From positions 1 to 39,843 of the forward strand of contig SUWW01000022.1 of assembly GCA_015061285.1 (NCBI GenBank): a stretch of DNA of 39,843 nucleotides. Direction: 5' to 3'. This document shows, in pieces, positions 19,879 to 39,843 of this stretch (position 1 is its first letter; each line of letters opens with the position of its first letter). The position numbers and the translations under genes are program-made. The notes under the pieces are model-generated. The model did no database searches and had not been told where the DNA came from. It saw only the letters and a list, made by a program, of their open reading frames with translations. The DNA is from Bacteroidales bacterium (lineage in GTDB: Bacteria; Bacteroidota; Bacteroidia; Bacteroidales; Marinilabiliaceae).

Positions 19879-19908
19879 TTTGTCGTTGAAAAAATATGTT
19901 TACTTTTG
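19879..19908 (+). promoter_or_regulatory. Promoter of the 31-residue repeat protein gene
   Basis: TTTG at 19879-19882 and a perfect -7 TACTTTTG at 19901-19908, 18 bases apart. Transcription would start near 19914, so starts at 19880 are excluded and ATG 19937 is favoured. Confidence 0.65.
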
Positions 19909-19936
19909 TGCAAACATGTTAATTATCAACGAAAAA

Positions 19937-20737
19937 ATGTTAACACAATTATTGAAAAGGTCTTTTTGCAAAAGGAGCAGAAGCAGCAACACTAAACTAA
20001 TCTTTGAAACCCAAATGGTGGTTCTGATTTTATTGGTATTGTTAATAGCTATGCCATTTATCAAAGATACCCCGTTGGTTGAAGATGAAGGACACACGAC
20101 ATCTACAATTTCGTATAAATACAACTCCGAAAAGCAGCAAGGTGTATATTCAAGCAAAGAGGAGTGTAAATACGATAAATTGGGCAATATCGTCACCAAA
20201 ATTAAGTATGGCTACTTGGAAGAGTCGGCATCGTGGTATTATGTAAGCAAAGAGAGCTATGACTACGACGAAAATGGCAATTGCATTACCGAGGTGATGT
20301 ATAATTATGATTTCAACAATTCGAAATGGCTCGGATATAACCAGCAAAAATTTGCATACGATGCGAAAGGCAACAAAGTAGCGTATGTATATAGTTTTTA
20401 TGATAATAATACATCATCGTGGATAGATTCGAGTCGTGGTGAATATTCATACGATGAGGTTGGTAATCGTACAATGTTTGCTTCATACAAATACAGCGTG
20501 TCGCAAGCAAAGTGGATAAATTCAAGCAAAGAAGAGTATGCCTACGACAGCGAAGGCAATAGAATTTCATCGGTTTCCTACAAATTCGATTCAGAAAAGT
20601 CTTTGTGGGTTGGAACCGATAAGTATGTATATACATACAACGCAGAAGGCTTTCGCACTACATATTCAGCCTATAAATACGATGAAAACACCTCTTCGTG
20701 GGTCGACTCAGAAAGGTATGAGTATTCGTATGATTAG
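19937..20737 (+). CDS. Membrane-anchored protein of seven 31-residue YD-type repeats
   Basis: 266 residues. A basic N-terminus (about 1-26) is followed by one hydrophobic segment (MVVLILLVLLIAMPF), so it is probably a signal anchor with the rest outside the inner membrane. From about residue 50 to the end the protein is exactly seven units of 31 residues, each ending in YD or YN. The consensus is x-x-GN at positions 3-4, Y-x-Y at 11-13, W at 20, and E-x-x-YD at the end. Only the first unit lacks the Trp. The last unit ends exactly at the stop codon. The motif resembles the YD-type repeats of RHS-like and DUF3836-like Bacteroidales proteins, but I do not recognise a named family with confidence. 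Confidence 0.72.
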   Translation: MLTQLLKRSFCKRSRSSNTKLIFETQMVVLILLVLLIAMPFIKDTPLVEDEGHTTSTISYKYNSEKQQGVYSSKEECKYDKLGNIVTKIKYGYLEESASWYYVSKESYDYDENGNCITEVMYNYDFNNSKWLGYNQQKFAYDAKGNKVAYVYSFYDNNTSSWIDSSRGEYSYDEVGNRTMFASYKYSVSQAKWINSSKEEYAYDSEGNRISSVSYKFDSEKSLWVGTDKYVYTYNAEGFRTTYSAYKYDENTSSWVDSERYEYSYD

Positions 20738-20762
20738 TTCATAATTTGTGCTTTATAAAATG

Positions 20763-20800
20763 AAAAGAGGTCGTTCAACTTTTGTTGGCGGCCTCTTTTC
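20763..20800. terminator. Bidirectional terminator between the repeat protein and C1 peptidase genes
   Basis: AAAAGAGG...CCTCTTTT with further pairing inside (GTCG with CGGC). It lies between two converging genes, with T-rich tails on both sides. Confidence 0.82.
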
Positions 20801-20824
20801 TTATTTCGGTTCGAGAGAATAATT

Positions 20825-22216
20825 CTACATCTCTGGAGCAAACATTGGATCCCATGCTGGGAGAAGTGTTGGCTTTTGTTTTAGAATGTTGAGTATTTTC
20901 TCAGATACGTATTTCTTTTCAACCACAAGACGGAACATATACTCGTTGAACCACTCATCTGTCATAATAAGATAGCCATTGTGACCACTTGAAGCACCCC
21001 AACTATTCTCGACTCTCCATTTTGTTGGTTTGCCATTTTTGTCGATATCTACAGCATCGAGTGTCATAGCATGCGACGAACCACTTTGATGGCTCAACAC
21101 GCGTTGACGTTTGTCCATGTTGAATGTAGTACCCATGAGCGATGCATAATCATAATTATTAAGATCGAGAAGACCACGTTCCGAATCGAGTTGCTTAGCA
21201 ACATCGCATGAAAAATACATAGCCGTAGAATCCTTGAGCGATGCTATGGCAATAGGTTTTATATCTTCGATAGGTAGATTTATGTATAGCCAATTGTGTC
21301 CGTCGTATGTATGGCGGTCGTATTCAATTTCATAAACTTTGTAGTATTCGCGAGCTGGATCGTTCATAAGCATTACGAAATCGGTGAGAATGGGATTGTT
21401 AGCAAATTTTTTAGCGAACGAAAGAGGTGTATAAGTATCGTTGGATACGAGTTCACCTTTCGAATTGTATTGTGCCCAAGTGAACTCTTTGGGTGGCATG
21501 CCCAAGTTAATAACCAACATTTTGTATATCACGCCAAGCATTTGCTCTTTTTTGGCAATGAGGGCTTTTTCGTTAGCACCTTTTTCGGCTGCAGAGCGGA
21601 GTTCGATGGCTTGTTCGCGTAGCTTTTCTTTTATTAGAGCAGCCATGCGGCTCGTATTGTTAGCCGAGTGCGACTCGGGCATAACCGATGCAGGCACGAG
21701 ACCATATTTAGTTACGAGGTCGGCTACTCCAGCGAAAGTACCGCCGTCGCTGAGTGGATTGCTGAACAACCAATCTACTTTGCGGTCGTCCATCGAAAGT
21801 TTGCGTGTGTCGATGATGGCTTGAAGGAATAGGTTCGATTTTTCAAGTTGGTCATAGAAAAATACGTATGACTGTGAAAATTGGAACGAACCAAGGTCAA
21901 AATCGCTTATCGCTTTGGCTCTAAGTACGTTGAGTCCAGTGAAAAGCCAACAACGTCCAGAACTATTTTGGTCGGTGATGCCTTTAGTTTTAACCTCTAC
22001 ACTGAAATGGTCGTCGACAGGCTTGTTATTTTCTTGATTTACAGCAAGCTTTTTTATCTCATTGTTGCCTATGGCGTTGCGAATAGCGCGTTCGGCAGGT
22101 GTCTCTCGGTAATTAGTTCTTAACTGTTCTACTAATTCATTGCTAATCGATTGTGCTGCTGCTCCACTACCCATAAGCAATGTGAATGCTGCAACAATTG
22201 TGAATTTAATTTTCAT
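20825..22216 (-). CDS. C1B-family peptidase (bleomycin hydrolase/aminopeptidase C-like), secreted form
   Basis: 463 residues from ATG 22216; the frame is open to 22291 but the signal peptide (MKIKFTIVAAFTLLMGSGAAAQ) begins at 22216. Papain-like catalytic residues are visible: Gln 83 and Cys 89 in QNSSGRCW, His 382 in GSSHAMTLDAVD, Asn 404 in VENSWGA. The family forms hexameric aminopeptidases, usually cytoplasmic; the N-terminal signal peptide places this one in the periplasm or outside. It lies 61 bases after the DUF3820 gene and may be read through from the trkH operon. No own -7 element was recognised. Confidence 0.92.
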   Translation of the reverse strand: MKIKFTIVAAFTLLMGSGAAAQSISNELVEQLRTNYRETPAERAIRNAIGNNEIKKLAVNQENNKPVDDHFSVEVKTKGITDQNSSGRCWLFTGLNVLRAKAISDFDLGSFQFSQSYVFFYDQLEKSNLFLQAIIDTRKLSMDDRKVDWLFSNPLSDGGTFAGVADLVTKYGLVPASVMPESHSANNTSRMAALIKEKLREQAIELRSAAEKGANEKALIAKKEQMLGVIYKMLVINLGMPPKEFTWAQYNSKGELVSNDTYTPLSFAKKFANNPILTDFVMLMNDPAREYYKVYEIEYDRHTYDGHNWLYINLPIEDIKPIAIASLKDSTAMYFSCDVAKQLDSERGLLDLNNYDYASLMGTTFNMDKRQRVLSHQSGSSHAMTLDAVDIDKNGKPTKWRVENSWGASSGHNGYLIMTDEWFNEYMFRLVVEKKYVSEKILNILKQKPTLLPAWDPMFAPEM

Positions 22217-22277
22217 AATTCTATTTAGGTTTAGTTTTGGTAAATAGTTGTGATATAGTTGTTTACTGCTTGGGTGC

Positions 22278-22490
22278 TTATTTTTTCTCAAAAGGTTTTA
22301 GTAAGTATTCTAAACCATTGAGTTTTATCTCGTAAAGTGTGGCTAATAATACCCCGAGACGCCCTGCAGGAAATCCTTTCTGCTTGAACCACAACACATA
22401 GGTTTCGGGAAGTTTATATAGTACCACACCTTTATATCGTCCGAAGGGCATCTTCATATTAGCAAGTTCGTATAGGATTTTTTCGTCCAT
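22278..22490 (-). CDS. DUF3820 family small protein
   Basis: 70 residues, no signal peptide. The pattern MPFGRYKG near residue 14 and LPETYVLWFKQKGFPAGRLG identifies the DUF3820 family, a compact fold found in many Bacteria. Function is unknown; some relatives are labelled quorum-sensing-regulated. It begins 3 bases after the BASS transporter stop, so they are translationally linked. Confidence 0.83.
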   Translation of the reverse strand: MDEKILYELANMKMPFGRYKGVVLYKLPETYVLWFKQKGFPAGRLGVLLATLYEIKLNGLEYLLKPFEKK

Positions 22491-22493
22491 AGC

Positions 22494-23471
22494 TTATGCG
22501 TTCTTGTTTGTTTTGTGGTCGTCGATGCGGCAGAAAAGACCAGCCAAAATTGTGCCCGAAATCGAATGCCAAGCGCACGATATAGCGCAAGGTACTATTG
22601 AAAGAGGGTTTGTTGCCATAAAAAATGTAGCTGCAAGCGATGTGGCTAAACCTGCGTTTTGCATACCTATTTCTATAGAAAGAGTACGGCTTTTTGCAAT
22701 GTTGAATTTTGCTATGTGGGCCACTATGTATCCAAGAATGTAGCCTGTAGTGTTGTGGCAAAATACTACTGCAAATGTGAGCAAAAACAACATTAGCCCA
22801 TGCTCCATCAAAGTGCTATGAACACTCGATACTACGCCTCCAACTATGCACGCCAAACCTACAACTGAAAAACCAGGCATCACGTTGCGAACTTGCTGAA
22901 ACGAGCTGTTTGTGCCAATCTTCATATTTAGCACGAAACCTATAAACACTGGTATTATAGTTACTATAAGTATGTTTAGGAACATTCCTACAGCGTCTAC
23001 ATCAACACTCTTGTCGGCCAACATAAGTACGAGAAATGGGGTAGCGAAAGGTGCTATGAGTGTCGAAACGGTGGTCATACCTACCGAGAATGCTACATCA
23101 CCTTTGCACAAGAAACTCATTATGTTCGACGACACGCCTCCAGGACAGCAGCCTACTAATATTATACCTATCGAAAGTGAAGCATCGAGGTTGAATATGC
23201 GCGTCAGAGTGTAGGCAACGAGCGGCATGATGGTGAATTGCGATAGTGTGCCGAGAAGTATGTCGAATGGTCGTTGAACTAATATTTTCAAGTCGCTTAT
23301 CGTGAGCGTGAGACCCATAGTCAGCATTATGAATCCCAATATAGCCACTTGTGTATAACCTCTTACCCACGAAAATATGTCGGGTACTATAAGCGTTAGT
23401 ATAGCTATAAGTATTATAAAAATTGAAGTATAGCGACTTAGCCACGCCGATATTTGTTGCAAAATTTTCAT
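22494..23471 (-). CDS. Bile acid:sodium symporter family (BASS) transporter
   Basis: 325-residue inner-membrane protein with nine or ten hydrophobic segments. The signature LVGCCPGGVSSNIMSFLCKGD and the later EIGMQNAGLATSLA match the BASS/SBF family, including the crossover motifs that bind sodium and substrate. Substrates in bacteria range from bile acids to pantoate and other organic anions; the sequence does not tell which. The ATG at 23471 overlaps the trkH stop (ATGA), supporting this start over the upstream in-frame one at 23483. Confidence 0.92.
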   Translation of the reverse strand: MKILQQISAWLSRYTSIFIILIAILTLIVPDIFSWVRGYTQVAILGFIMLTMGLTLTISDLKILVQRPFDILLGTLSQFTIMPLVAYTLTRIFNLDASLSIGIILVGCCPGGVSSNIMSFLCKGDVAFSVGMTTVSTLIAPFATPFLVLMLADKSVDVDAVGMFLNILIVTIIPVFIGFVLNMKIGTNSSFQQVRNVMPGFSVVGLACIVGGVVSSVHSTLMEHGLMLFLLTFAVVFCHNTTGYILGYIVAHIAKFNIAKSRTLSIEIGMQNAGLATSLAATFFMATNPLSIVPCAISCAWHSISGTILAGLFCRIDDHKTNKNA

Positions 23472-24907
23472 CTCTCTTTCCAAAATGATGGAGTAAGCAC
23501 AATTAGAAATGTGTATAGTTCCAAACGTCCCATTATCATCAAAGCAGTCATAATCAATTTTACAGGGTCGGGGAGTGAAGCAAGTGAAGCCAAAGGACCA
23601 AAGTGACCTATAGCTATACCTACGTTTCCTAAACTGCTGGCTGCTAATCCATAAGAGTCTTCAAGAGAAAAACCGAATAGCGATATTGCTACCATTCCTA
23701 ATGTAAATACTGTTATGTATAGTGTGACGAAAGATAGTACGCTCGATACGTCGCTATTTGTTATGCTACGGCCGTTGTATTTCACTGGCACTATGGCTGT
23801 TGGGTGAATGGCTCGACGAAATTCGTTTAGTACGTTTCGCATGACTATGGTTAATCGCATGAATTTTATTCCGCCACTCGTTGAACCGGTGCATGTGCCC
23901 ACAAGCATAAGTATTGCCAATATTGTTATTGTTGATGATGGCCAAAGAGTGTAGTCGGCTGTGGTAAATCCTGAACTTGTTGTTACTGCTATTACGTGGA
24001 AGAACGCTTTGCGAAGTGAACTTTCTATGCTGTCGTATGTGCCAGTAAGATATAGCGAGAGTGCAATAACCAGTGAGGCGCAAATTACCGTCAATGTGTA
24101 GTATTTCAGTTCGTCGTCGGCTGTGATTCGTTTGAATTTGCCAATCAACATCACGTAGTAGAGTGTAAAGTTGACGCCTCCTAAATACATAAATACTATT
24201 GTCACATATTCGAAATATGTATTCTCAAAAGCTCCTAAACTTAGACTGCGTGTAGAGAAACCTCCCGTTGAAAGTGTCGATAAAGCATGACAAATGGAAT
24301 CGAATGTCGACATTCCGCCTAAAACAAGTAAGATGGCGTTGATTGCTGTAAGTATTACGTAGAAGCACCACGTGTAGCGCGCCATTTCGGTGATTTTAGC
24401 CTTCATCTTGTCGGCTCGTGTGAGTGTAGCCTCTGCCGAAAAGAGGTTCATTCCGCCCAATTCTAAGGTCGGTAGAAGTACCATTGAAAGGGTTATAATT
24501 CCCATTCCGCCAATCCATTGCGATAGACTGCGCCATAATAGCACACCATGTGTAGAGTCTTCTATGTATGAGATGAGCGTTGCGCCAGTAGTGGTGAAAC
24601 CAGAAACTGTTTCAAAAAATGCATCTATAGTCGACGGCATGAATCCGCTGAATATATATGGCAACATGCCAAAGATTGAAAACACAATCCACGTGAAAGC
24701 CACTATTATGTAGCTCTCTTTTTGTGTCATATGAAAACGTTTCTTGCGCGTCAGTAATGCTCCTACGCCTCCCAGTACGCTACAAATAAGTGCGCTCAGA
24801 AGAAAACTTGTTGCGTCGTTATCGCCGTATATGGCTGAGACTAAAGCTGGAAGAAGCATAAATATGCCTTCGCCAAGTAGCAACAAACTTAATACGTATA
24901 TTACCAT
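23468..24907 (-). CDS. trkH: Potassium uptake protein TrkH/KtrB family
   Basis: 479 residues, membrane subunit of Trk/Ktr K+ uptake. The four pore loops are seen: SGFTTTGA (102-109), STGGFS (213-218), SSGFTT (311-316) and LGNVGIA (426-432), each with the filter glycine. No trkA/ktrA regulatory gene is nearby. The frame opens at a TTG at 24928, but this lies within a -7 element (24926-24933), so ATG 24907 is chosen. It is the first gene of the trkH-BASS-DUF3820 operon, with ATGA overlap into the transporter gene. Confidence 0.95.
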   Translation of the reverse strand: MVIYVLSLLLLGEGIFMLLPALVSAIYGDNDATSFLLSALICSVLGGVGALLTRKKRFHMTQKESYIIVAFTWIVFSIFGMLPYIFSGFMPSTIDAFFETVSGFTTTGATLISYIEDSTHGVLLWRSLSQWIGGMGIITLSMVLLPTLELGGMNLFSAEATLTRADKMKAKITEMARYTWCFYVILTAINAILLVLGGMSTFDSICHALSTLSTGGFSTRSLSLGAFENTYFEYVTIVFMYLGGVNFTLYYVMLIGKFKRITADDELKYYTLTVICASLVIALSLYLTGTYDSIESSLRKAFFHVIAVTTSSGFTTADYTLWPSSTITILAILMLVGTCTGSTSGGIKFMRLTIVMRNVLNEFRRAIHPTAIVPVKYNGRSITNSDVSSVLSFVTLYITVFTLGMVAISLFGFSLEDSYGLAASSLGNVGIAIGHFGPLASLASLPDPVKLIMTALMIMGRLELYTFLIVLTPSFWKER

Positions 24908-24925
24908 CTTTTCAAAAATGAGCGG

Positions 24926-24933
24926 CAAATATA
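24926..24933 (-). promoter_or_regulatory. -7 promoter element of the trkH operon
   Basis: Minus-strand TATATTTG matches TAnnTTTG, 18 bases upstream of ATG 24907. It leaves a very short leader and decides the trkH start. Divergent from the promoter of the ATP-grasp-like gene. Confidence 0.52.
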
Positions 24934-24959
24934 ATTTTTAGCTCTCAATTGTGTTGTTA

Positions 24960-24967
24960 TAACTTCG
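24960..24967 (+). promoter_or_regulatory. -7-like element of the ATP-grasp-like gene
   Basis: TAACTTCG, one base off TAnnTTTG and identical to the element before the 13.0 kb cluster, lies 27 bases before ATG 24995. Confidence 0.4.
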
Positions 24968-24994
24968 TACTTCGTTGTGCGAGTAACAAATTTT

Positions 24995-26149
24995 ATGAAT
25001 AGAATATACGTATATAATCCCACGTGTGAAATGGCAATTGCCAATGGCTTAGCTGGTTATTGCCCTCCGAAACGTCTGCAAGAGTTCGAAACTGAGCTGG
25101 CATCTTTGTTGATGTTTTCGGCAAAACCAACTGATTGCGTTGTAGCTCCACCTCTTGATGGCGCTTTTGTCGATTTGCTGTCTACGCTTGCTGTGTCTTT
25201 GCCGCAATTCATATCGCCCGAAGATGCTCGTCGGCTACTTATGCATGGAGGCTATGAGTTGCAACCGTGGGGCCGTTGTAAAAGTATTTTCCATACTTAT
25301 GGTATCGACATAGATTTTGGTCCGGCGCAACGTATGCTCCACTCGCGTCTATCTTCTGTAGCTATTGAGAATCATTGCATATCCGAAGATGAATTTTTTG
25401 AAAATGCTAATCCTCAGATTGTTAAATCGATGGACGATTTTGCACGTGCTCGAGAAATGTTCTCAGGGCAGTTTGTTGTCAAGAGTTTATGGAGCTCGTC
25501 GGGTAGGGGGGTGGTCAAAACCGATTCTTTCCCTACGCAAGACTATTATGAGCGTTGGGCTGCAGCGCGTTTGCGGGCCGATGGCGCTTTTGTGGTTGAG
25601 CCGCTATTGCACAAGGTTAGCGATGTGGCATTTCTCTATTATGTTTCTGATGATCAAAATGTATCTTTCTTAGGTCACAACGTTTTCTCGTCCGATTCAG
25701 CAGGACGCTTCGGCCGCGAACTAATTAATATGTACGATGAGCAACTTAGAAAACTCCTTTCTACTCGTATTCAGCAAATAGTAGATGTGCACACCAAGGC
25801 GCTTGTCGATAGTGGCATATCAGCTAAATATCATGGATATGTGGGCTTTGATAGCATGCTCATTAGCGACGAAAGTGGTATGCTGAAATTTCGGCCTTGC
25901 GTAGAGTGTAATCTGCGTATGACGATGGGCAATGTTAATATGGGCATAAGCAATCTTTTTGCTCCATCAGCTCACGCTTGGTGGCAAATCGGTAGTTATA
26001 CACGCGAAAATGAGTGGAACGAGTTCGTGGCGAACGAGAGTGCCAAGCATCCATTGCATATCGAGAAATGCAAAATTGTGAATGGCTTTTTTCGTCTTAC
26101 AGCATTAGGTTCTCACAAACATTTTGGTGTGTATGGTTATGCCGAATAG
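24995..26149 (+). CDS. ATP-grasp-like conserved Bacteroidales protein
   Basis: 384 residues, soluble, no signal peptide. A conserved N-terminal part (IYVYNPTCEMAIANG) is followed by a region with an ATP-grasp look: GQFVVKSLWSSSGRGVVKTD (a Lys-Ser-Gly loop that could bind ATP phosphates), FVVEPLL, then YVGFDSMLI and RPCVECNLRMTMGNVN, with an acidic/Asn pair that could bind Mg. The carboxylate-amine ligase activity typical of this fold is inferred; the substrate is unknown. ATG 24995 is chosen over 24977 because a -7-like element lies at 24960-24967. It converges with the response-regulator gene, with 24 bases between stops. Confidence 0.72.
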   Translation: MNRIYVYNPTCEMAIANGLAGYCPPKRLQEFETELASLLMFSAKPTDCVVAPPLDGAFVDLLSTLAVSLPQFISPEDARRLLMHGGYELQPWGRCKSIFHTYGIDIDFGPAQRMLHSRLSSVAIENHCISEDEFFENANPQIVKSMDDFARAREMFSGQFVVKSLWSSSGRGVVKTDSFPTQDYYERWAAARLRADGAFVVEPLLHKVSDVAFLYYVSDDQNVSFLGHNVFSSDSAGRFGRELINMYDEQLRKLLSTRIQQIVDVHTKALVDSGISAKYHGYVGFDSMLISDESGMLKFRPCVECNLRMTMGNVNMGISNLFAPSAHAWWQIGSYTRENEWNEFVANESAKHPLHIEKCKIVNGFFRLTALGSHKHFGVYGYAE

Positions 26150-26173
26150 AGAATGCCTAAAGGTTGTGTTTGT

Positions 26174-26815
26174 CTACACCTTGTACATGCCGGTCTTAAC
26201 GGCGTAGACCACAAGCGAAGCCGTGTTCGAACACCCAGTTTTCACCATCAAGTTAGCGCGATGCTTTTCTACTGTGCGTTTACTTATAAACAGTTCGTCG
26301 CCAATCTCTTGGTTCGATTTTCCTTCGCATATTTTTACCAATATCTCGCGCTCACGGTCCGAGAATGAAGTCTCCTCTTTGTTGTTCTGGGCCTCTATGG
26401 CAAGTTGATCGAGAAGTTCCTTTGAAAAATAGAAATCACCTGTCGAAACAGCCTCTATAGCACGAACAACTTCCTGAAAATCACAGCTTTTTAGCAAAAA
26501 GCCCTTTATGCCCAAGTCTACAAGTTTGTCGTAATACTCTTTGTCTCCAAACATCGAAAGTACTATGATGTTTATTTTTGGAAAAATACGCATTGCTTGT
26601 TGTGTGGCTGCTATGCCATTTACTTCGGGCATAGCAATGTCAAGAAATACGATGTTAGGATGCTCGTTTTTTAGTTGATCGATAAAGGCTTTGCCATTGT
26701 CGGCTTCGAATGTCACTTTTACGCCTTTGATGCGATTTAGAAGTGTGCGAAAACCAACTCTAAACAATTGGTGATCGTCAACAATCCATACTGATAAATT
26801 TTTGTCAGAAGTCAT
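26174..26815 (-). CDS. NarL/LuxR-type response regulator
   Basis: 213 residues. Receiver domain at 8-125 with acidic pair Asp 13-14, phospho-acceptor Asp 59 in VFLDIAMPE, Ser 87, and Lys 109 in FLLKSC. A LuxR-type helix-turn-helix lies at about 150-210 (FSDREREILVKICEGKSNQE, then ISKRTVEKHRANLMVKTG). Its start overlaps the kinase gene by 11 bases, so they form one two-component system. The target genes cannot be read from the window. Confidence 0.95.
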   Translation of the reverse strand: MTSDKNLSVWIVDDHQLFRVGFRTLLNRIKGVKVTFEADNGKAFIDQLKNEHPNIVFLDIAMPEVNGIAATQQAMRIFPKINIIVLSMFGDKEYYDKLVDLGIKGFLLKSCDFQEVVRAIEAVSTGDFYFSKELLDQLAIEAQNNKEETSFSDREREILVKICEGKSNQEIGDELFISKRTVEKHRANLMVKTGCSNTASLVVYAVKTGMYKV

Positions 26816-27758
26816 AGGTAGGTATTTTTATATATGCATTCATTCCGCGTCCATTGTTATCGCTAAACTCAATAGAGCCCTTTAGCGAAGTGACACGCGA
26901 TTTCATATTATAGTATCCCATTCCGTGTCTCGAATATTTCAATGCTTTGTCGAAGTCGAAGCCAATACCATCGTCGGAATAGTTTATTAGCAATGTGTTA
27001 TTTTCATCCATAAGCGACAAATGCACGTTGTGTGCATGGGCATGTCGAATGGTGTTGTTTATCAATTCGCAGATAACTCTGTAGACCACAATTTCAATTG
27101 TTTCGGGGTAGCGCTTGTTTTTTATAGATAAGTTGAGGTCGAATTTTGGTTCAGAATTCTTGAGTGTTAAACTCGACACAAATCTGTTTACCGCGCTTTC
27201 GATGCCGAAACTCGACAATATATGTGGAGATATGTTGTTTGATATTTCGCGTGTTGTCGTTATGGCTTCGTTCACGGCATCAACGAGATTTTTTCTAATC
27301 TCCTCATCTTGAATATCGTTACTGATAGCCGAAACGCCCATTTTTACCGACGACAATAACGGACCTAATCCATCGTGAAGCTCCGAAGCAAATCGACGGC
27401 GTTCGTTCTCTTCGGCGTGAATCACCGATTGGAGTAATTTTTTCTCATAATCACGTTGCTTAATCTCGGCGACATGAAGCAGTCTAAATATGCGACGAAG
27501 CGTAAATATGCCAATAGCAAAGCAAAATGAGACGAAAATCCCTCCCCACGAATAGAATTCTGGAGATTCGAAGCCAAAATCGGGACGAAAAAGAGCTACG
27601 AAATCTATTACTCGTCTAATTGATATAATTACCAATCCCATGCTGAAAAGCACCCAAGAAATGTTGAATTTCGTGTACTTCATCAGCATTATGGCAACTA
27701 TTGCTGCCGTTATTTGTAGTATTCCCGTTATAACAACAAAAATATCGTATACTATCAT
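26805..27758 (-). CDS. Sensor histidine kinase (NarX/DesK-like, HisKA_3)
   Basis: 317 residues. Three hydrophobic segments at about 5-25, 35-55 and 70-87 form a compact membrane sensor without a large periplasmic domain. A coiled linker follows, then the HisKA_3 dimerisation helix with phospho-acceptor His 128 (SELHDGLGPLLSSVKMG) and an HATPase_c domain with N-box ELINNTIRHAHA (231-242) and DDGIGFDF and GRGMNAY motifs. The lack of an extracellular domain suggests sensing within the membrane or via the membrane state. A -7 element lies at 27767-27774, just upstream. Confidence 0.94.
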   Translation of the reverse strand: MIVYDIFVVITGILQITAAIVAIMLMKYTKFNISWVLFSMGLVIISIRRVIDFVALFRPDFGFESPEFYSWGGIFVSFCFAIGIFTLRRIFRLLHVAEIKQRDYEKKLLQSVIHAEENERRRFASELHDGLGPLLSSVKMGVSAISNDIQDEEIRKNLVDAVNEAITTTREISNNISPHILSSFGIESAVNRFVSSLTLKNSEPKFDLNLSIKNKRYPETIEIVVYRVICELINNTIRHAHAHNVHLSLMDENNTLLINYSDDGIGFDFDKALKYSRHGMGYYNMKSRVTSLKGSIEFSDNNGRGMNAYIKIPTYDF

Positions 27759-36788: not shown

Positions 36789-37565
36789 TTATAAATCGAA
36801 ATTACTGAAATATCCCTTGTTTAATATGCGATAGTCGGTTGTGTCAAGTGTAATTGGACTGATGGTGGCATAACCTTTTGAAAGCCAATACATATCGGTG
36901 TCGGTGGCGCTATCCTCATCGTTGATATAAGTACCTTCGAGCCAATAGTATTTTTGAGCATAAGGGTCTTCAAAACTTACTGAGGCTTCGTTCCAATGTC
37001 CTGCTGCTATTCTGCACTCCTTCAGACCTTTAACTATACCTATGGGTATGTTTACACTATAAAAAGTGCTGCGAGATAACGAAGATTCCAGCGACGTCTC
37101 TATTACATGTTCTATGATACGTTCTGATTCACCGAGGTTGATATTGCGTCCGTAATCGCAGTATGAAAAACCGATGCCAAGTATGTTTAGCATGGCAGCT
37201 TCGCGCGTAGCACCAAGAGTTCCCGAATAGTGAACAGATGAAGAATAATTGCCACCATGGTTTATACCAGAGAGTATAATGTCTGGTTTGCGGGGCAATA
37301 GAGTATGTACGCCAATCTTAACGCAGTCGACGGGCGTGCCGCTCACAGCGAAGCATTGCACGCCTTGAATATGATTAGTTTCCGAAACTTTTAGTGGCTG
37401 ACAAACAGTGATTGAGTGGCTTTTGCCAGAATTGGCGCCATCGGGAGCTACAACTACCACATCGCCAAAACGTTTTGCTATATGTGCCAACAACTTAATG
37501 CCTTCGGCACTTATGCCATCGTCGTTGGTTATCATTATAAGCGGAGCTTTCGCTTCTGTATTCAT
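36789..37565 (-). CDS. surE: 5'/3'-nucleotidase SurE
   Basis: 258 residues. Hydrolyses nucleoside monophosphates in the cytoplasm, metal-dependent. The metal-binding NDDG motif is at 14-17, followed by VVAPDGANSGKSHSIT and a later LSGINHGGNYSSSVHYSGTLGATREA, all standard SurE signatures. First gene of the surE-membrane protein-lpxB-gldFG operon, with a -7 element 17 bases upstream. Confidence 0.96.
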   Translation of the reverse strand: MNTEAKAPLIMITNDDGISAEGIKLLAHIAKRFGDVVVVAPDGANSGKSHSITVCQPLKVSETNHIQGVQCFAVSGTPVDCVKIGVHTLLPRKPDIILSGINHGGNYSSSVHYSGTLGATREAAMLNILGIGFSYCDYGRNINLGESERIIEHVIETSLESSLSRSTFYSVNIPIGIVKGLKECRIAAGHWNEASVSFEDPYAQKYYWLEGTYINDEDSATDTDMYWLSKGYATISPITLDTTDYRILNKGYFSNFDL

Positions 37566-37844: not shown

Positions 37845-37913
37845 ACACAGATATAAAGGATAATAACAGATAAATAGATCTGTGAAAATCAGTTCAATCA
37901 GTGAAATCTGTGT
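37845..37913. repeat. ACACAGAT / ATCTGTGT repeats upstream of the TANFOR gene
   Basis: ACACAGATATAAAGGAT at 37845-37861 and inverted copies ATCTGTG (37878-37884) and ATCTGTGT (37906-37913). The first copy resembles the motif at 134-152. Just before, a stretch of ATTGA-type direct repeats runs at 37807-37835. Such strings are frequent in intergenic Bacteroidota DNA. Confidence 0.45.
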
Positions 37914-37944
37914 GCTTACTAAAAAATATATAAAGCCAAATAAA

Positions 37945-39843
37945 TTGAAACGCGTTACCTACATACTGTTATTCCTCCTCCTGAGCATCACTATCTATGC
38001 TCAGCGAGCGCCTATCACCGTAACTACTATACTTACGCCGCCTTACACGACGTCATTATCCACGATGGCGGAGAGCGGTAGCACGCGGTTGATGGTGAAC
38101 CTGCTTGTCAACGACGTAACAATCACGGAGATACCCGTCAAACTCCATATCAAGATGGAGAGCTCGGGCATCACCATCGAGAGCATACCTACGCAGGCCG
38201 TTCGACCGATGTTTCTCGGTGGTGGCGAGGCACGCGTACTCACGGGCGACGACTTTGCAGAGTACCTAAGACTTGACAATCTTAACTTCAAAGGCTTCTC
38301 TAAAGAGGCATATATAAAAAACGGACAACTGCCCGCCGGATTGTGGAAATTCTCGGTCAGCGTAAGGCATTTCTATACCAATAAAACCATCTCCAACATA
38401 GGCACAGTGACGGCGTGGATAACGAGCTACAAACCGCCCGTTTTGACAACGCCCAAGGAGGGCGAGAACGCACCGAGCAACGCCGCTTTGCCACTAACAT
38501 TCAGTTGGCAAGCGAGCAAGCACACAGGCGGCACGGCAGCCATAATGTACCGTTTCGAGATGTGGGAGAGGCGCGTCGAGGGTGTACCAGCGCAGGCAGT
38601 GGCAGCAAGCGTTCCGCCTATTTTCACCACCGAAACCGCAGGTTTGACAGCCACCGTACTTCCCGCCACACTCGCCCTTGAACCTGGCATGAAATATTGC
38701 TGGCGCGTGACGGCGTACGACCCATCGGGCATGGTGACAATTGAAAACAAAGGCGAGTCGGAAGTCAGGACATTCCAATATCTTGAAAAATGCCCCGAAG
38801 TCTGCGGATTGACGGTAGATATTAAGGATGACACTGGGTATGCCTCGTGGGAGGAGAACCGCATGCATCTCGGTGGCTACAACTTCGAGTTCTACGACGA
38901 CGAAGGCACGTGCCACAAGACACTGTGGGGCAGCTCGAACAAGACGGCAGGCATAGGCGGAGAATACGGCAAGACGTGGCACGTGAGGGTGCAAGGTCTC
39001 TGCCGAAGTGGTGTCGAAGGACCATGGAGCGACTGGGTGGACTTCAAAATACCCGATGCCTTCAAACCGCTGAAGGATGAGAATGGGAATACGTATGAGT
39101 GCGGACGAGAAGTCCCTGAGCGCGTGATAACCAACTTCGAACTCATCGACAACATACAAAAAGGCGACACACTCGAAGACGAGCGCGGCACAACGAAATA
39201 CATCGTTCATTCAGCAATAAAAAACGAAGACGGCAGTTTTCGCGGACTCTCGTACATGAAGTTGAGCATCTGGGGCGTGAAGGTGCTTGGCGAGTACAAC
39301 AACATGAAGGTGAACACCGACGGCGTGATAATAGGCCGTTACGCATGGAAATCCGTGAAATCCGACCTGCTTGTTGCCGACCCCGAAGCCATTGAGAAAT
39401 GGGCTGACGAACTGGCGCTCGAGATGGCTGGAGCTACCTACAACAACACCATCAAAGACACCATCGTTCTCAAATATTCCCGCGGCATAGTACCATTCGA
39501 AACCATCGAGCGCGAAGGTGGTAAATATTATGCCGTAACAAGCGACGGGCATAAGGAGGAAATCACCTCATTCATCAATGGCCGAAAGCGCGTAATGGTA
39601 AAAGATGGCGACGGTCACGAACTCGTCATCGACAAAGACGGTAACGTGATGGGCGTGGAGGAGTATACGAAGTGCGGGGGAAGCTCCAAACTCCTCAGCG
39701 AGCACAACGCCTATCGCGACAGCACGATGGCAACATCGGGCAATGTCAAGTTCAGCAAAGTCAAAAATGAAAATTACGGCTTTGATGAATGGCGAGGCGC
39801 AGAGTACGACAAAGACGTATACGACAACTTCAACGGCTACCGC
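37945..39843 (+). CDS. TANFOR/fibronectin type III secreted protein, 5' part (partial)
   Basis: An open frame of 633 codons from TTG 37945 runs off the right edge without a stop. TTG is taken as start because it opens a good signal peptide, (M)KRVTYILLFLLLSITIYAQ. Residues 21-160 resemble the TANFOR domain first named in Tannerella forsythia (RAPITVTTILTPPY, AVRPMFLGGGEARVLTGDDFAEYLRL and LPAGLWKFSVSVR). Two fibronectin type III-like domains follow at about 163-278 (FSWQASKHTGG and YCWRVTAYDPSG) and 283-370 (VRVQGLCRSGVEGPWSDW). Residues about 385-633 are a later region with YNNTIKDTIVLKYSRGIVPF and a charged GD-rich part; its class is unclear. The DNA is richer in G+C than the rest of the window. 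Related proteins are large; a C-terminal export signal or effector would lie outside the window. Confidence 0.82.
   Translation, partial: MKRVTYILLFLLLSITIYAQRAPITVTTILTPPYTTSLSTMAESGSTRLMVNLLVNDVTITEIPVKLHIKMESSGITIESIPTQAVRPMFLGGGEARVLTGDDFAEYLRLDNLNFKGFSKEAYIKNGQLPAGLWKFSVSVRHFYTNKTISNIGTVTAWITSYKPPVLTTPKEGENAPSNAALPLTFSWQASKHTGGTAAIMYRFEMWERRVEGVPAQAVAASVPPIFTTETAGLTATVLPATLALEPGMKYCWRVTAYDPSGMVTIENKGESEVRTFQYLEKCPEVCGLTVDIKDDTGYASWEENRMHLGGYNFEFYDDEGTCHKTLWGSSNKTAGIGGEYGKTWHVRVQGLCRSGVEGPWSDWVDFKIPDAFKPLKDENGNTYECGREVPERVITNFELIDNIQKGDTLEDERGTTKYIVHSAIKNEDGSFRGLSYMKLSIWGVKVLGEYNNMKVNTDGVIIGRYAWKSVKSDLLVADPEAIEKWADELALEMAGATYNNTIKDTIVLKYSRGIVPFETIEREGGKYYAVTSDGHKEEITSFINGRKRVMVKDGDGHELVIDKDGNVMGVEEYTKCGGSSKLLSEHNAYRDSTMATSGNVKFSKVKNENYGFDEWRGAEYDKDVYDNFNGYR

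Follow-up and report, generated by a model that had tools for sequence, protein, structure and literature searches.

We found that the window, which is the entire contig C2 (39843 bases) of genome G000 (3.55 Mb, 25 contigs), very probably ends inside a polymorphic toxin gene composed of a trunk, a metallopeptidase-like domain, a swapped tail and a candidate immunity gene. The product is probably a large exported protein that we predict to be a bacterial weapon, with a front common to several copies in the genome and a tail specific to each copy. In the scheme that we propose, the protein would cross the inner membrane by the Sec pathway and reach the surface, where the metallopeptidase-like domain may cut the tail or help to release it; the tail would attack neighbouring bacteria, and the small downstream gene would protect kin. 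Cassettes would replace the tail by recombination in the common metallopeptidase segment. The general kind of toxin has already been published, and the present analysis adds, at the class level, the metallopeptidase-like domain before the junction, cassettes without the N-terminal part (N-less cassettes) and an unannotated barrel-like family as a candidate outer-membrane partner.

Architecture of the window gene

The gene occupies positions 37945-39843 of the forward strand and reads as 633 codons from a TTG start, with no stop up to the last base, as the preliminary description had stated. The open frame reaches back to a GTG at 37882, and the signal peptide begins at the TTG at 37945. A TTG is also the listed start of the copies on C4 and C18; the 13 bases right before it are common to C2 and C18 and different in C4. 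The signal peptide noted earlier was confirmed by eye as Sec-type (residues 1-19, 37945-38001) and is followed on the same strand by the TANFOR region (residues 18-165, 37996-38439; alignment A3), by two FN3-like domains with approximate limits (about residues 168-280, 38446-38784, and about residues 285-380, 38797-39084) and by a conserved trunk with no assigned function (39085-39843). In the C18 paralogue, this trunk runs into a metallopeptidase-like domain, which in the window copy would lie past the contig end; the window itself holds neither the metallopeptidase nor the toxin part, and both are predicted for its copy. The gene surE (36789-37565, reverse strand) lies outside the toxin system and serves below as a synteny flank.

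The intergenic DNA before the gene had been described as repeat-rich. Repeats are present but modest, amounting to a single imperfect inverted pair and a direct repeat with two copies. Additionally, stretches of 54 and 46 bases near the window gene recur at 98% identity on C9 and C5; this dispersed intergenic repeat lies at window positions 37900-37953, at C9:148787-148840 and at C5:2353-2398. In the vicinity of the C5 copy is an ORF of 180 aa (L013:1741-2283), which we take to resemble a REP-associated tyrosine transposase.

Contig break and related copies in the genome

The frame had been noted to run off the window. It is indeed open at the end, but the cause is the assembly, because the window is a whole contig that ends in a collapsed repeat. 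A second copy, whose protein is 97% identical to that of the window, leaves contig C4 at the same point, and end-to-end base comparison showed that C2 and C4 have exactly their 77 terminal bases in common (39767-39843 in the window). Another 77 bases are common to the start of C22 and the start of C19 (minus strand); past the first 100 bases, these two contigs are unrelated (23-35% identity in each 100 bases). A repeat with two entries and two exits, each at a fixed length of 77 bases, points to a short-read assembly graph, and the break is therefore an assembly effect. The missing sequence at the gap was estimated against C18 at about 0.8 kb.

In total, three copies in the genome (C2, C4 and C18) have a common high-GC trunk with the signal peptide, the TANFOR region, FN3 and a conserved middle. 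Decay of the window copy into a pseudogene would fit the N-part fragments on C6, one of which carries a stop, but the 633 open codons, the 97% identity to the C4 copy and the position of the break at the 77-base assembly repeat make it highly improbable. The C6 fragments (C6:73282-73505; L004, L006 and L011) are short relics of the TANFOR N-part, covering residues 7-57 and about 142-176 with one stop, and represent a lost copy.

In the genus mate G056, five N-part copies lie at the ends of contigs C8, C11, C20, C68 and C74, which is the same kind of assembly break. In another genome (G064, contig C34), two TANFOR genes of 1231 and 1387 aa (L064 and L065) lie about 19 kb apart, and their TANFOR regions differ by one residue in alignment A3; this near-identity suggests gene conversion of the trunk.

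Composition and probable transfer

The preliminary description had remarked that G+C content and third-position G+C (GC3) were higher than in the genes to the left. This was borne out: the window gene has a GC of 0.524 and a GC3 of 0.643, exceeding each of the other 29 ORFs in the window, which reach at most 0.478 and 0.575. Over 114 ORFs sampled mechanically from the genome stretches examined, GC3 was 0.426 ± 0.085, and two ORFs were higher in GC3 and none in GC. In the C18 gene, GC3 is 0.52-0.76 up to about residue 900, then 0.42, dropping to 0.23, and in the C22 tail it is 0.28. The genes for proteins of 572 and 672 aa on C19 are likewise high in GC3 (0.671 and 0.615). All six N-part matches in G056 are 84-87% identical to the window protein, whereas SurE, an antiporter and a P-type ATPase of the same two genomes are only 44%, 50% and 59% identical. 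Judged from these identities, a recent horizontal transfer of the trunk gene involving G056 is likely.

The complete C18 paralogue and the metallopeptidase-like domain

The gene on C18 (L010:3673-7839) is uninterrupted and encodes a protein of 1388 aa, which has 90% identity with the window protein across the common N-part. As evident from this copy, the order of parts is a signal peptide, the TANFOR region, FN3, a metallopeptidase-like HExxHG domain, a variable tail and an overlapping downstream gene. At residue 841, after the trunk, the protein reads HEICHGAFHLKH. Past the HExxHG domain, at an acidic stretch such as QDEEEG, the sequence and GC3 shift sharply into the copy-specific tail; the HExxHG domain is present in relatives as well as in C18. 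The C18 tail gave no convincing match in Pfam, NCBIfam or the PDB. The downstream gene (L010:7836-9008, 390 aa), with membrane segments recognized by eye, overlaps the end of the toxin gene by 4 bases. This candidate immunity protein and two others (L023:6852-7808 and L024:8274-9425), also with membrane segments by eye, have similar C-terminal parts, and the corresponding toxin tails are partly different.

The domain at the junction appears to be zincin-like and metallopeptidase-like. In alignment A2, its motif reads HE[LI]xHG, and a third His follows at +11 from the first; at E ≤ 0.01, Reprolysin_5 matched this part in 19 of the 48 rows. A profile of the part searched against the PDB gave nothing below E 0.01; the best match was an IgA protease at E 0.15, and a wider set gave antibody noise. 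The PVC-metallopeptidase toxins (Zhang et al. 2012, PMC3482391), as presented in the available part of that report, similarly place a zincin-like domain right before a variable toxin, but their motif is HExxHxxQ-E. Membership in that family was considered and rejected, as this signature is missing from alignment A2.

Comparison of the toxin class across relatives

A scan for the metallopeptidase part with one genome per species gave 208 relatives, 80 of which were analysed. They yielded 92 frames: 48 complete with the N-domain, 20 open at the 5' end, 20 without the N-domain (two of these tiny and motif-free) and 4 open at the 3' end. The 48 complete relatives are 1159-2374 aa long, and all 48 contain the zinc motif, a count that is partly built in because the scan used this motif as one of its two patterns. 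An ORF of at least 60 aa starts between -60 and +100 bases from the gene end in 47 of the 48. All 1128 pairs are similar in the metallopeptidase part, partly by selection since the loci were picked by that part; similarity of the whole tails was found in 50 of the 1128 pairs and of the last 160 aa in 7. The downstream ORFs are similar in 2 of 1081 pairs, both among the tail-similar pairs. A full-length alignment had too little conservation to serve as a query of the collection. The frames without the N-domain start inside the locus, and some are cassettes as on C22 and C19, while others may be fragments.

Pfam matches among the 48 tails included PT-HINT, C39 and ADP-ribosyltransferase (2 each) and M23, M15, CHAP, EndoU and an NS_2 nuclease (1 each), besides others. 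The downstream proteins looked exported in 9 of 9 cases with wall-hydrolase- or C39-type tails versus 0 of 4 with nuclease or ADP-ribosyltransferase tails (p = 0.0014), in a comparison of 13 of the 47 downstream proteins that were hand-picked after their N-termini had been seen. Two of the Pfam matches used were below cut-off (L143 and L135), the assignment of four tails came from their resemblance to C22 or C19, and the export score cut-off of 1.9 was set by the analyst, with L150 passing at 1.97. This is the pattern that immunity proteins should show if the tails act in those compartments.

A different function would be that of a surface adhesin or peptidase with tails that process the wall or surface of the producing cell itself and with chaperones encoded downstream. 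Such a role would agree with the FN3 and metallopeptidase-like domains of the relatives and with the several wall-hydrolase-like tails. It is nevertheless very unlikely, as nuclease, ADP-ribosyltransferase and HINT domains also occur among the tails, the downstream genes are as varied as the tails, N-less cassettes exist, and both immunity and direct binding were demonstrated for one TANFOR toxin in the available part of PMC7073777. A toxin with a cognate immunity gene thus remains our preferred reading.

Tails, cassettes and the probable continuation of the window gene

C22 begins with the remainder of one toxin carrying a C39-like domain (C22:1-1380), followed by a gene for a 250-aa lipoprotein-like protein (C22:1391-2143) and a pair of N-less cassettes that both have a small gene of their own. 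On C19, the remainder of another toxin carries an endolysin-like domain, and after it come a small gene, a single cassette plus small gene, and then the 572-aa and 672-aa genes. The C22 tail matched C39-like structures at 1.7e-7, and the C19 tail matched endolysins at 5e-12. An N-less cassette consists of a metallopeptidase part, a tail and a small gene, and such cassettes adjoin two of the tails. Because the DNA of the metallopeptidase segment is 82-90% identical among C18 and two cassettes, tail swapping would have ready homology.

To which tail the window gene leads was judged from the genus mate G057. There, homologues of the window ABC-type gene (32963), LpxB and SurE stand on one contig and are followed by four ORFs and then by a Ser-rich protein, an outer-membrane protein, an antiporter and a glycosidase, as at C22:8377-15768. 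One of the four inserted ORFs encodes an LRR protein with a 27-33% identical relative on C18, and three had no match in the stretches compared. Additionally, a 53-aa relic of the barrel gene described below adjoins the Ser-rich gene in G057, and a barrel fragment is present at the same site on C22. On account of this synteny, C22 most likely holds the continuation of the window gene, which suggests a C39-like tail and a lipoprotein-like candidate immunity protein; the assignment rests on synteny, not on gap-spanning sequence. By elimination, the C4 copy most likely continues into C19.

Gene order is not fully conserved, as the block at 19880-27758 lies left of the ABC-type gene in the window and beyond the glycosidase (BglX) in G057, and the link from C2 to C22 is therefore likely rather than proven. 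The ORFs of C22:15769-35000 were without a match in the part of G057 that was searched. Compared with L198 and L096 (G057:C14), the block 19880-27758 lies on the opposite side of the surE region with its orientation kept, which marks a rearrangement near the TANFOR site. A homologue search did not find the TANFOR N-part in G057, which may be an assembly loss because an 826-aa frame with the metallopeptidase part is open at its 5' end at the end of a 7.1-kb contig; G057 also has the barrel and the FN3 gene.

The preliminary description had proposed a polymorphic effector with a variable C-terminus at the entry to an accessory island. The variable C-terminus is evident in the paralogues and relatives and applies to the window copy by synteny; the same holds for the toxin-like C-terminus with a small immunity gene that was to be looked for to the right, for which candidate genes were found (on C22 for the window copy). 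The locus is accessory, since in G057 the matching flanks enclose other genes.

Relation to published TANFOR toxins

The TANFOR and FN3 assignments of the preliminary description held in part. TIGR02542 did not match the window protein or the C18 paralogue, and gave nothing in the own genome at E ≤ 0.001, in a search that was silent in all 14 of its controls as well. It matched 28 of the 44 rows of alignment A6, which comprises the window protein and 43 of the 48 complete relatives, the window-protein row not being among those matched. Over the phylum, it matched 8 of 296 genomes, none above cut-off. When proteins from six of these eight genomes (L084-L089) were compared, all six had a blastp homologue; the window or C18 protein matched the TIGR02542-matched proteins significantly, at best with E 1e-59 (C18 residues 17-926) and at weakest about 1e-9. 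Because the aligned rows and blastp match but the window protein misses TIGR02542, the protein was filed as a divergent relative and not as a profile member. Similarly, neither FN3-like domain of the window protein gave a curated profile match, but fn3 matched 42 of the 44 rows, the window protein excluded, and the alignment profile matched FN3 structures in the PDB. The first domain had a weak Ig_Rha78A_N match below cut-off in addition to the profile comparison, and the PDB matches of the second lie at about profile positions 290-367. In the family, N-part homologues, some of them short pieces, occur in 26 of 71 genomes and 11 of 21 genera.

The role of TANFOR proteins is better described than had been assumed. 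Jana, Salomon and Bosis (2020, PMC7073777) named the TANFOR toxins and, in the available part of their report, demonstrated direct binding between one toxin and its immunity protein. By its sequence, the window protein is a divergent relative of these toxins and would work like that class. The two have in common a homologous N-part, a Sec signal and variable C-terminal toxins, to which may be added FN3, matched here in the aligned relatives, and downstream candidate immunity genes, as well as a neighbourhood with SprB or T9SS-substrate genes, here at the C4 copy; they differ in that the window protein misses TIGR02542 and in the multi-copy trunk and N-less cassettes shown here. The available main text of PMC7073777 does not contain the words 'peptidase', 'protease', 'orphan', 'barrel' or 'porin'. 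TANFOR is also listed as a trafficking domain in the available part of PMC11796102. Searches of titles and abstract openings in the open-licence literature (TANFOR; polymorphic toxins with type IX or the Bacteroidota outer membrane) found no further studies of the TANFOR toxin class, and open-licence papers yielded nothing on C39-like effectors of Bacteroidetes.

Export route and the barrel-like candidate partner family

The 572-aa protein of C19 has a signal peptide by eye, no Pfam match at E ≤ 0.01 and no PDB relative by profile. Among 41 long complete members of its family, 38 carry an aromatic-x-aromatic motif within the 25 C-terminal residues, and the final residue is aromatic in 18. Beta-strand alternation gave a median z of 2.47 (range 0.36-4.41) for the family; as controls, four PorP/SprF proteins gave 1.1-3.5, and 12 of 14 window proteins fell below 1, the other two giving 1.21 and 4.29. 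Alignment A8 includes 34 of the 38 listed barrels.

SprF is an outer-membrane barrel-like protein associated with the surface substrate SprB. PorP/SprF proteins (PF11751) resemble the partner family in being outer-membrane barrel-like and associated with surface substrates, but they have about 320-365 aa compared with about 570, and PF11751 does not match the partner. Identity of the barrel with PorP/SprF was thus rejected; the genome has four PF11751 matches, none of them at the barrel. CdiA/CdiB two-partner toxins also combine a large exported toxin, a swapped tail, an immunity gene, N-less cassettes and an outer-membrane partner gene. In contrast, no TPS or CdiB-type Pfam match was found here, and neither Pfam nor the PDB yielded a relative of the barrel-like candidate partner.

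Of the 71 family genomes, 26 have TANFOR, 26 have the barrel and 22 have both (Fisher p 1.3e-10, descent ignored). The barrel is present without TANFOR in G023 (broken), G024, G030 and G057, and TANFOR without the barrel in G004, G017, G055 and G062, G017 and G055 having only short matches. Of the 33 barrel matches, 15 have an N-part match no more than 10 kb away, and the rest are on other contigs or farther away. Among the 48 complete loci, 20 have the barrel immediately upstream in the same orientation, 2 have it upstream in the opposite orientation, 5 have it at another place in the locus, and 21 lack it in the stretch examined. A relative of the FN3 gene was found in only 10 of these 48. 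Twelve further loci with the barrel, from the window's family, were examined (L185-L196), and in 11 of them the barrel is accompanied by a whole or broken FN3 gene (about 670 aa). This co-occurrence suggests that barrel and toxin may belong to a common export or display apparatus.

The preliminary description had considered the protein to be possibly type IX-secreted. The genome does encode SprA and 12 Por_Secre_tail matches (8 above cut-off), but Por_Secre_tail is missing from the C-terminus of the full-length C18 protein, which thus lacks the mark of a CTD-type T9SS substrate, so that type IX export is indicated by context only. That the same toxin leaves by the type IX system, with the barrel as an accessory for CTD-less substrates as SprF is for SprB, is possible but somewhat unlikely. 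In the available part of PMC7073777, T9SS export of TANFOR toxins is put forward as a hypothesis with the route left open, and more than 95% of TANFOR genomes are reported to have a T9SS. A protein with SprB repeats and Por_Secre_tail, encoded two genes upstream of the C4 copy, is consistent with this route, as are the SprA and Por_Secre_tail matches; the complete C18 protein without a CTD and the position of the barrel outside the genome's PorP_SprF matches speak against it. A RhuM-family gene (L009:3093-4094; PF13310, 3.8e-108) separates the SprB/T9SS-substrate gene from the C4 TANFOR copy.

As a tentative and rather doubtful proposal, a dedicated, undescribed outer-membrane apparatus might export or display TANFOR toxins. 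It would consist of the barrel-like protein of about 570 aa encoded with or near the toxins, mostly joined in the window's family by the FN3 protein of about 670 aa, and would serve several interchangeable toxins of one genome, a Bacteroidota route distinct from the classical CTD-dependent T9SS.

Implications

Multi-copy trunks break short-read assemblies in the own genome and in its genus mate, and such toxins may therefore be under-counted. The N-less cassettes suggest how these toxins diversify, and the metallopeptidase-like domain at the toxin junction offers a testable release step. The barrel-like family, which shares genomes and neighbourhoods with the TANFOR toxins, may explain how the toxins leave the cell.
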